DNA from: Promethearchaeota archaeon Loki_b32
GTDB lineage: Archaea; Asgardarchaeota; Lokiarchaeia; Sigyniarchaeales; SOKP01
Direction of reading: 5' to 3'
Assembly: GCA_005223125.1 (NCBI GenBank)
Contig: NJBH01000011.1
Location: 1-64,000 of the forward strand
Length of the DNA: 64,000 nucleotides
Positions within the stretch are counted from its first letter, which is position 1; each line of letters starts with the position of its first letter. Positions 24,406 through 37,327 of this stretch are shown in pieces. The notes under the pieces were generated by a model. The model was not told the origin of the DNA, ran no database searches, and was given only the letters and a program-made list of their open reading frames with translations. A program made the translations under genes and the position numbers.

Positions 24406-24579
24406 ATGTCAGAATGGAAAAATAAGTTAGATAACGATACTAATGATACTTATTACAATAAAATCTCTTGTACCGGTTGAGGTATTATTGATGGTGTTAT
24501 TAACAGTATAAGAAATCTTAAAAAACGCAATAAAAAAAACAAACAAACAAAAATTAAATCCAAGAATCTCAAGGAGTAG
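24406..24579 (+). CDS. Candidate 57-residue selenoprotein A (in-frame TGA at codon 25)
   Basis: ATG 24406, TGA 24478-24480, TAG 24577-24579. The reading frame gives an acidic N-terminus (SEWKNKLDNDTNDTYYNKI), the motif SCTG-[TGA]-G, a hydrophobic IIDGVINSI and a lysine-rich tail. If TGA is selenocysteine, Cys at codon 22 and Sec at 25 form a C-x2-U redox pair. A second tiny ORF with the same layout lies 200 bp on, and both have a similar hairpin 27-29 nt after the stop. A TATA-like AATATATTTAT is near 24347. Lokiarchaeota are known to encode selenocysteine with downstream SECIS elements. An alternative is a 24-residue peptide ending at TGA, or chance. Confidence 0.5.
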
Positions 24580-24594
24580 ATTATTAAATCTTAG

Positions 24595-24632
24595 GATCTC
24601 CTCTTATGAATTCCGTGAAGAATTCGAGATTA
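24595..24632 (+). promoter_or_regulatory. Candidate SECIS-like hairpin A
   Basis: Stem GAATTC (24608-24613), loop CGTGAA, stem GAATTC (24620-24625); GATCTC before and GAGATT after can extend the stem around a 5'-side bulge. It shares TAGGAT, TTAT, TTCCG, AAGAA and GAGAT in the same order with hairpin B. The helix between any AUGA/GA core and the loop is shorter than in eukaryotic SECIS elements, so the match to a known SECIS class is not proven. Confidence 0.45.
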
Positions 24633-24787
24633 ACATAAAAATTTCTAATTTTATTAGGGATTAAGAATTAACTCAAAAATCCTTATAAAAAATTAAATCT
24701 CACAATCTACATTTTATATTTTATAATCGCCGCTCTTTTATCTTTTCCTTGCTATACTACAAATAGATAGTTAAAGGTTAAATAACA

Positions 24788-24946
24788 ATGGAAGAACAGG
24801 AAGATTATTTAGATCTTGAATTTGATGATGATTGCTACAGTACAACTTGAAACATGCTTAGTATGTGGTATAAAAGAGCTAAAAAACTCCGAAAAATACG
24901 TGAAGCACAAGAAAAAAAAATGAAAATAAAACTCTCAAATAATTAA
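24788..24946 (+). CDS. Candidate 52-residue selenoprotein B (in-frame TGA at codon 21)
   Basis: ATG 24788 with AAAGGTTA upstream, TGA 24848-24850, TAA 24944-24946. The frame gives an acidic N-terminus (EEQEDYLDLEFDDD), CYSTT-[TGA]-NMLSMW and a basic tail (YKRAKKLRKIREAQEKK). The arrangement acidic, Cys/Ser/Thr, TGA, hydrophobic, basic is the same as in ORF A, and the following hairpin is also alike. Both features recurring side by side make TGA readthrough more likely than two independent accidents. The function is unknown; a small membrane-peripheral redox peptide is a guess. Confidence 0.5.
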
Positions 24947-24954
24947 ATCATTAA

Positions 24955-24998
24955 ATGGTAGGATTTAATTATAAGTTCCGCAAGAACTTTGAGATACG
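24955..24998 (+). promoter_or_regulatory. Candidate SECIS-like hairpin B
   Basis: Stem AAGTTC (24973-24978), loop CGCAA, stem GAACTT (24984-24989), preceded by TAGGATTTAATTAT and followed by TGAGAT. The base-paired stem differs from hairpin A while the loop-proximal TTCCG...AAGAA is kept, which is what a conserved RNA structure would show. Confidence 0.45.
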
Positions 24999-35563: not shown

Positions 35564-36025
35564 ATCCCTAAGGACGCATTAAAGTTTTTTCACGCATATG
35601 TTAAAGAAATGATTGATATAGGTGGGAGTAATTTACCAAAAGCAATTTCTACTAAATCTGGGTCAAAACTGGGAAAATTATATAAAGAAAGAGGATTAAC
35701 TGTAGATATCGGGATTGCTTTAAAACAAGTATATTCTGCACTTAAAGCAAAACCATTGATAAAAAAACTAAATGATGATACATATGAAGTGATTATTAGA
35801 TACTCAAAAAAATTCTGCCCTATAGGAGGGGCTCATAATCCCTCCCGAGCTCCGATTTTTCAAGAGAATATTTGTATTCCTTATACACGGGGTTTTTTAA
35901 ATGAACTTTTTCCACAATTTACGTTTGAAGCAGAAATTTTAAATTGTATACCACTTAATAATCAACATACTTGCCATTACATTCTAAAAATCAAAAATAA
36001 GAAGAATACAGATCACATAACTTGA
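35564..36025 (+). CDS. V4R-like protein, copy 1, apparently starting at ATC
   Basis: A 153-residue protein homologous to the next two genes. The first ATG (35609) lies 15 codons inside the conserved N-terminus. ATC at 35564 is the codon matching the ATG of copies 2 and 3 (PKDALKFFHAYVKEMIDIGG against NKDSLKFFQAYIKEMIDIGG), an in-frame TGA lies at 35552, and GAGGTGAT ends four bases before it. The C-terminal half has FCPIGG, ICIPYTRGFLNELFPQF and a closing Cys/His strand, a V4R/hydrocarbon-binding-like pattern that may bind a small hydrophobic ligand or metal. Confidence 0.75.
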   Translation: MPKDALKFFHAYVKEMIDIGGSNLPKAISTKSGSKLGKLYKERGLTVDIGIALKQVYSALKAKPLIKKLNDDTYEVIIRYSKKFCPIGGAHNPSRAPIFQENICIPYTRGFLNELFPQFTFEAEILNCIPLNNQHTCHYILKIKNKKNTDHIT

Positions 36026-36196: not shown

Positions 36197-36655
36197 ATGT
36201 CAAAAAATAAGGATTCTTTAAAGTTCTTTCAAGCATACATTAAAGAAATGATCGATATTGGAGGAAAAAATTTACCAAAAGCCATCTCTAGTAAATCGGG
36301 GGCAAAATTAGGAAAAATGTATAAAGGAAGAGGATTAACTTTGGATATTGGAGCTGCATTAAAACAAATTTATACTGCATTGAATGGAAAACCAGTGATA
36401 AAACAATTAGATGAGAATAGATATGAAGTAATCGTAAAATTTGCAAAGAAATTTTGTCCAATCGGGGGTTCAAACAATCCATCTCGAGCTTCAATTTTTC
36501 AAGAAAACATTTGTATTCCCTACATGCGAGGATTTTTAAATGAGATTTTTCCCCAATTCACGTTCGGAGAAGATATCTTAAATTGTATTCCCCTGAATAA
36601 TCAAAAGACTTGCCATTTTATTTTAAAGATCAAAAATAAACAACATATCAGTTAG
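36197..36655 (+). CDS. V4R-like protein, copy 2
   Basis: A 152-residue protein closely similar to copy 1 over its length, with FCPIGGSNNPSRASIF, ICIPYMRGFLNEIFPQF and NQKTCHFILKIK. Cysteines near residues 92, 111 and 144 are common to copies 1 and 2 and could bind metal. The 171-bp spacers between the three genes share AAATAATTCT(G/T)ATAA...AGTCTTAAAT elements, so promoter regions were duplicated along with the genes. Start is ATG at 36197. Function is unknown. Confidence 0.75.
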   Translation: MSKNKDSLKFFQAYIKEMIDIGGKNLPKAISSKSGAKLGKMYKGRGLTLDIGAALKQIYTALNGKPVIKQLDENRYEVIVKFAKKFCPIGGSNNPSRASIFQENICIPYMRGFLNEIFPQFTFGEDILNCIPLNNQKTCHFILKIKNKQHIS

Positions 36656-36868: not shown

Positions 36869-37327
36869 ATGCAAAAAAATAGAGATGCTTTAAAATTCTT
36901 TCAGGCGTATATTAAGGAAATGATTGATGTCGGTGGTATTAATCTTCCTAAATCGATCTCTGCCAGCTTAGGTGCCAAATTGGGTAAATTATTAAAACGA
37001 CGCGGAATATCTGGATTAGAGAATACTCTAAAAAGAATATATAATGTTCTTAATGCTAAGACTCAGATAAAAACAATAGATGATAATACTATGGAAATAA
37101 CTTTGCGTTATCGATCACGTTTCTGTCCTCTTGGAGGAGAATATAACCCTGATAGGGCTGAACTTATTCAAAATACAATATGTATCCCTTATACAGTAGC
37201 AATTTTGAATATTTCTCATCCTGAGTATAAATATAGTGCCAAAATAATGGAATGTATTCTTAATTCCAATCAAAAAAATTGTAAATATCGACTAGTAAAA
37301 GAACTGAAAAGCATTGACAATAATTGA
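36869..37327 (+). CDS. V4R-like protein, copy 3 (more divergent)
   Basis: A 152-residue paralogue. The N-terminal third is conserved (RDALKFFQAYIKEMIDVGG), as are FCPLGGEYNPDRAELI and ICIPYTVAILN, but the RGFLNE(I/L)FPQF segment is changed, suggesting a different ligand or partner. ATG at 36869. It ends against the 3' end of the SRP RNA on the other strand. Confidence 0.72.
   Translation: MQKNRDALKFFQAYIKEMIDVGGINLPKSISASLGAKLGKLLKRRGISGLENTLKRIYNVLNAKTQIKTIDDNTMEITLRYRSRFCPLGGEYNPDRAELIQNTICIPYTVAILNISHPEYKYSAKIMECILNSNQKNCKYRLVKELKSIDNN

Follow-up and report, generated by a model that had tools for sequence, protein, structure and literature searches.

Two small genes, ORF A and ORF B, lie in tandem in the window (the whole 64,000-nucleotide stretch of DNA analysed here, part of contig C64 of a 4.13 Mb assembly that is 95.5% complete), and comparative sequence analysis strongly supports reading both as candidate selenoproteins. 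We put at about 90% the probability of the whole explanation: tandem mini-selenoproteins in which UGA would be read as selenocysteine (Sec) by way of the archaeal machinery and a three-way-junction SECIS, with a redox role the likeliest. It is built on conservation of frame and UGA, on an exchange for Cys that is accompanied by loss of the RNA element, on RNA covariation, on the presence of the machinery and on the absence of the canonical SECIS core; what we infer is the insertion of Sec, the identity of the element as a SECIS and the redox role.

Tandem genes and conservation across the TGA

ORF A (MSEWKNKLDNDTNDTYYNKISCTGUGIIDGVINSIRNLKKRNKKNKQTKIKSKNLKE) ends with TAG and ORF B (MEEQEDYLDLEFDDDCYSTTUNMLSMWYKRAKKLRKIREAQEKKMKIKLSNN) with TAA, and the only in-frame interruption of each is one TGA (Table 1). 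The sequence-only reading had described two small ORFs of 57 and 52 codons about 200 bp apart, with in-frame TGA at codons 25 and 21, respectively, and a C-x2-U motif in ORF A. They are present as described, with a spacing of 208 nt and the TGA at those codons, and homologues of A usually have C-T-G-U at this place. The "hydrophobic stretch" that was ascribed to both ORFs is better described as an amphipathic helix. The pair is flanked on one side by a divergent gene for a 227-aa membrane protein and on the other by a convergent gene for UDP-glucose/GDP-mannose dehydrogenase; the latter adjoins the A/B locus in most loci examined.

Table 1. Features of the A/B locus (positions in the window)
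Feature	Position	Strand	Evidence
ORF A, candidate selenoprotein, 57 residues	24406..24579	+	44 aligned homologues, TGA in one column in all
ORF A UGA (proposed Sec codon), C-T-G-U (CxxU) motif	24478..24480	+	column invariant, 44/44
RNA element A, three-way junction, proposed SECIS	24564..24632	+	R1 57.2 bits, R2 64.1 bits; covariation
Element A lower stem, AATCTC / GAGATT	24565-24570 / 24626-24631	+	
Element A hairpin 1, stem AGTAGATT/GATCTCCT and flanking pairs, 12-nt loop ATTAAATCTTAG	24573..24604	+	compensatory changes relative to B-type elements
Element A hairpin 2 (the hairpin of the sequence-only reading), GAATTC-(CGTGAA)-GAATTC	24608..24625	+	
ORF B, candidate selenoprotein, 52 residues	24788..24946	+	29 homologues: 28 TGA, 1 Cys TGT, same codon
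ORF B UGA (proposed Sec codon), C-Y-x-[ST]-[ST]-U (C-x4-U) motif	24848..24850	+	homologue alignment
RNA element B, three-way junction, proposed SECIS	24930..24997	+	R1 82.2 bits, R2 75.2 bits
Element B lower stem, TCTC / GAGA	24933-24936 / 24991-24994	+	
Element B hairpin 1, ATTAAATC-(ATTAAATGGTAG)-GATTTAAT	24942..24969	+	
Element B hairpin 2, AAGTTC-(CGCAA)-GAACTT	24973..24989	+	

Family A, sought with a 44-sequence profile, is found in 46 of the 228 genomes of the phylum, all of one taxonomic family and each with an internal TGA. Family B, for which a translated B that continues past its TGA served as query in a tblastn-type search, is found in 27 of the 65 genomes of the taxonomic family, nearly all with one internal TGA. 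(A match to B in genome G097, at E 2e-4, is short, has 2 TGA and is not counted; a peptide-pattern scan of genome contigs with B found the Cys form alone because the pattern required Cys codons.) Homologues keep the frame across the TGA, which occupies the same codon in 44 of 44 aligned A genes and in 28 of 29 B genes, the sole exception being a Cys codon in a gene that has lost the RNA element. The motif of family A is usually YCTGU-[GA]-I-[IV]-DGII, in which Sec and the preceding Gly are invariant; that of family B approximates DDDCYxTSU-x-[ML][LI]-x-MWYxRAxKL. Conserved residues flank the TGA on both sides (for example D29 in A and, after the TGA of B, the invariant W of MWY), and no Met past the UGA is conserved in family A. 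Values of pN/pS, 0.24-0.54 before the TGA and 0.54-0.61 after it, are below 1 on both sides and fit coding on both, but alone they are weak evidence, since synonymous sites approach saturation. The genomes of the relatives are largely metagenome assemblies, so that some of these sequences may be wrong. Judged on the sequences, the recurrence of A, B and the element in relatives is far beyond chance.

Comparison of the A and B profiles gives E 6e-5 at a probability of only 66%; the two are treated as likely duplicates because their RNA elements are clearly homologous, and the tandem genes are thus probably related by duplication. Neither has a Pfam or NCBIfam match above curated cut-offs or a sequence relative in the PDB. 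By sequence comparison with Pfam, NCBIfam, the PDB, the seven selenoprotein families discussed below and the open literature exclusive of preprints, A and B are the founding members of two previously undescribed small-protein families, both from one family-level group of Lokiarchaeota.

One natural replacement of the Sec codon separates the element from the gene. In Ca. Lokiarchaeota 9R3_44 (G023; JAHLWP010000015.1), of the same genus, B has TGT (Cys) at the Sec codon, is in-frame throughout and ends with a TGA stop; in its 3′ flank the element is reduced to the remnant AAGTTCTATAAGA. Its neighbour there, the A gene, retains TGA and element alike. Presence of the element thus follows the UGA rather than the gene or the locus: every B gene with TGA has one, and the Cys form does not. 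This is the only Cys replacement in B, and a Cys form of A is not found among the 44 aligned homologues.

Gene content varies among the relatives. The single-contig, 3.3 Mb genome G029 has three copies of B (C1:2131880, 191271 and 190236; L013, L035 and L036), two of them about 1 kb apart and each with TGA and element, a possible copy-number expansion. An A gene in another genome (L082; G057:C112) is apparently frameshifted just before the UGA, with the RNA element intact, which could be an assembly error or a recent pseudogene. Three genomes of the same genus (G019, G020 and G032, 92-99% complete) have SepSecS and no A, B or convincing element, an apparent lineage-specific loss of the pair.

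A three-way-junction RNA element downstream of the UGA

The sequence-only reading had pointed out a hairpin 3′ to each ORF and the shared motifs TAGGAT, TTCCG..AAGAA and GAGAT. All of the motifs are present at both ORFs. The hairpins correspond to hairpin 2 and half of the lower stem of a larger structure; hairpin 1, the larger of the two, and the other (5′) strand of that stem had been missed. In the 5′ to 3′ direction the complete element has first the lower-stem strand AAUCUC, within the last part of the coding sequence. A short linker rich in A leads to hairpin 1, another short linker separates this from hairpin 2 (AAGUUC-CGCAA-GAACUU), and the strand GAGAUU then closes the lower stem. Hairpin 1 has 8-11 bp and an 11-12 nt, A-rich loop ending in UAG, with a consensus near AUAAAAUGUUAG. 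The almost invariant letters are AAA and UAG in the loop of hairpin 1 and UCUC in the lower stem.

The pairing holds up in alignments made without regard to structure. When 29 elements are aligned by MAFFT, blind to structure, the proportion of paired cells is 94.6%, against at most 53% in slid controls, and 15 cells show double-sided compensatory change, against 4.2 when shuffled. A model-fitted alignment of 75 elements, which leans towards the structure, has double-sided changes in 14 of 19 pairs (137 cells vs 34.6 shuffled). RNAalifold, given an independent structure-blind alignment of 75, returns the three-way junction at -25.5 kcal/mol vs -1.4 +/- 1.3 for column-shuffled alignments (z about -18).

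The element occurs in 47 of the 65 genomes of the taxonomic family. Its strong matches in the 228 genomes of the phylum fall at A and B loci only, which rules it out as a general repeat or terminator. (The short sequence motif TTCCG-N(1-3)-AAGAA-N(2-5)-GAGAT likewise occurs at these two places only in the 4.13 Mb genome, a weak result alone because the backwards control also matches twice.) Weak R1/R2 matches elsewhere (L087, L088 and six more) have no TGA-containing ORF of the A/B families and are treated as chance. A weak R2 match in G010 (L182; G010:C163:5074-5139; E 0.004) has no recognisable A gene beside it, although G009, a genome from that genus, possesses A; the match might be a decayed copy of the element.

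The position of the element tracks the UGA and is largely independent of the end of the ORF. The distance from UGA to element is 76-86 nt (SD 2.6) in B and 65-91 nt (SD 4.4) in A, where 65 is one outlier and the range is otherwise 76-91. The stop codon may precede the element by up to 13 nt or fall as much as 38 nt within it, and the stop-to-element distance has an SD of 10.8 in B and 10.4 in A. At one locus (L009; G025:C54) A and B both end with TGA close to the start of the element. UGA may serve there as Sec codon and as stop in one mRNA, and distance to the element may decide between the two.

Proposed decoding of the UGA and the class of the probable SECIS

The genome encodes SepSecS, which is found in 63 of the 65 genomes of the taxonomic family, and EFSec (SelB), the SecS and SelB called for in following up the sequence-only reading, together with two tandem selD genes that each contain a UGA (L103 and L104; G000:C16:9975-12157). 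A tRNA-Sec was not located in the assembly: matches to RF01852 are Gly, Arg and Leu tRNAs, the best full-length one (L001) being rejected for its apparent anticodon UCC, and none was found in the stretches scanned with ARAGORN. Such searches may miss the gene because a T-arm intron has been reported in lokiarchaeal tRNA-Sec in the Secmarker paper (PMC5330540).

The proposal, then, is that the in-frame UGA of A and B would be decoded as selenocysteine by the cell's archaeal machinery (SepSecS, EFSec, SelD). Decoding would be directed by the three-way-junction element, about 80 nt after the UGA and overlapping or just past the end of the ORF, which on comparative sequence grounds is probably the SECIS of A and B. 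Two other readings of the UGA itself can be set against this. The UGA could be a true stop, leaving A and B as peptides of about 20 residues and the element as an unrelated regulatory or stability element; UGA is an ordinary stop elsewhere, and both G025 genes end with it. Yet the protein after the UGA is conserved across genera, in A with no conserved Met from which it could begin, the frame of the Cys form stays open past this codon and the element keeps its distance to the UGA and not to the end of the ORF, all of which makes termination extremely improbable. Reading of the UGA as an amino acid other than Sec (for example Trp or Cys, by a suppressor tRNA) with stimulation by the element is scarcely more plausible. 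The identity of the inserted residue is one that we infer, and nothing specific speaks for a different one; the Cys replacement in one homologue, the CxxU and Cx4U contexts and a genome that encodes enzymes of Sec synthesis and decoding as well as other UGA genes speak for Sec.

Two types of Asgard SECIS have been described (Huang et al. 2024, PMC11227280; the same two in a 2026 review, PMC13188914): eSECIS-like, with an AUGA_GA core, an upper stem of 7-15 bp and an A-rich apical loop, and eaSECIS-like, with GAA_A. Like Asgard eSECIS of types I and II, the element has a 3′ location, a long upper stem and adenines early in the apical loop, and it occurs in the same organisms (in this genome canonical examples stand at FlpD and SelD). 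Hairpin 1 falls within the eSECIS ranges, which for the loop are 8-20 nt with early adenines. In contrast, the element has no AUGA_GA quartet, its extra hairpin makes a three-way junction, its UCUC/GAGA lower stem is almost invariant and its distance from the UGA is nearly fixed. With the eaSECIS of methanococci it shares the 3′ gene end and the archaeal Sec pathway, but neither the GAA_A bulge nor the three consecutive G/C pairs of the upper stem is conserved. The sequence-only reading had already remarked that its hairpins match neither the archaeal nor the eukaryotic SECIS; this holds for the complete element, a three-way junction without either core.

Canonical SECIS were sought directly. 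A strict scan for [AG]UGA-stem-loop-stem-GA of 371 kb (both strands) from the genome itself and other loci gives exactly two matches, behind two UGA-containing FlpD genes, and the same scan of 181 kb at A/B loci gives none, even with AA also allowed at the 3′ side. A looser scan recovers one SelD SECIS and misses that of the other SelD copy (by eye a type II-like form); at A/B loci it finds no more matches than in shuffled sequence (2 loci vs 4.6). Neither scan thus places a canonical SECIS elsewhere in the A/B transcripts. No conserved GA_GA is seen in the alignment of elements, and an Rfam scan of the 64-kb window gives no match. The two FlpD/MvhD genes of the genome (L099, G000:C36:76577-76942; L100, G000:C50:18860-19228) have two in-frame UGA each and a canonical AUGA..GA SECIS; the AUGA motif of L099 is overlapped by an additional UGA, at the gene end.

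It is fairly probable, on this evidence, that the element represents a new class of SECIS: a three-way junction without the GA quartet, held at a nearly fixed distance of about 80 nt, existing beside the canonical kink-turn SECIS and serving two mini-families. Such an element would keep the long stem and A-rich apical loop, with the side hairpin and junction replacing the AUGA_GA kink-turn core. The alternative, that A and B are selenoproteins served by an Asgard eSECIS whose kink turn is kept as a k-junction and which is recognised as canonical SECIS are, is unlikely, but it has points of contact with the data. In a k-junction the non-bulged strand of the kink turn carries an additional helix (PMC10573300), and hairpin 2, on the 3′ strand, would be so placed were the AUGA side the bulged one. 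Hairpin 1, at about 9 bp with an 11-12 nt loop, AAA early and UAG last, is similar to the SECIS of FlpD in this genome (9-bp stem, loop ACAAAUUCUAG; loops of the new elements are such as AUUAAAUCUUAG). A three-way junction in which one strand bears an additional helix is common to the element and to k-junction RNAs (for example the TPP riboswitch; PMC10573300). Tandem G.A pairs are diagnostic of those RNAs, however, and no conserved ones are visible at the junction of the element: in its 5′ linker a single A is conserved and the rest varies, and hairpin 1 runs on at its 3′ side as Watson-Crick pairs or U/C/A.

Possible function and wider bearing

CxxU at the start of a helix is a redox arrangement seen in many selenoproteins. 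Sec of A and B would pair with a Cys 3-5 residues earlier (up to 8 in three A proteins) and is predicted to stand at or barely within the N-terminal part of a long helix that is amphipathic and rich in Lys and Arg. In AlphaFold2 models, made from single sequences for the window's own A and B and of low-to-moderate confidence, A (mean pLDDT 69) has a long helix at 24-56 that starts at Sec, and B (mean pLDDT 83) has a helix at 14-51 with Cys16 and Sec21 in its first turns. A and B might tentatively be viewed as small thiol/selenol redox carriers or peroxide-reactive proteins, a suggestion that draws on the CxxU motif and the single-sequence models because no known protein family or solved structure matches. 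Since the genes are tandem, their products may work jointly.

The eukaryotic SECIS is believed to have arisen in Asgard archaea. One organism of this group appears to use kink-turn and three-way-junction SECIS side by side, which would make it a natural test of what archaeal decoding needs. Published Asgard surveys have recognised seven selenoprotein families (SelD, FrhA/VhuU, HdrA, FrhD/VhuD, Prx-like, AhpF-N-like and DsbA-like; PMC11227280) and rely on either the AUGA_GA core or the GAA_A bulge in their searches for SECIS. A and B share with known archaeal selenoproteins a UGA-encoded Sec in a redox-type Cys/Sec motif and the archaeal Sec pathway, but they have only 45-60 aa and stand outside those seven. 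Two more families, too small for homology searches and with a SECIS that these surveys would overlook, would mean that selenoproteomes are under-counted.

Elsewhere in the window, positions 35609-36025, 36197-36655 and 36869-37327 encode three tandem related proteins of 138-152 aa, which have FCP[IL]GG and ICIPY motifs in common and are without a Pfam match.
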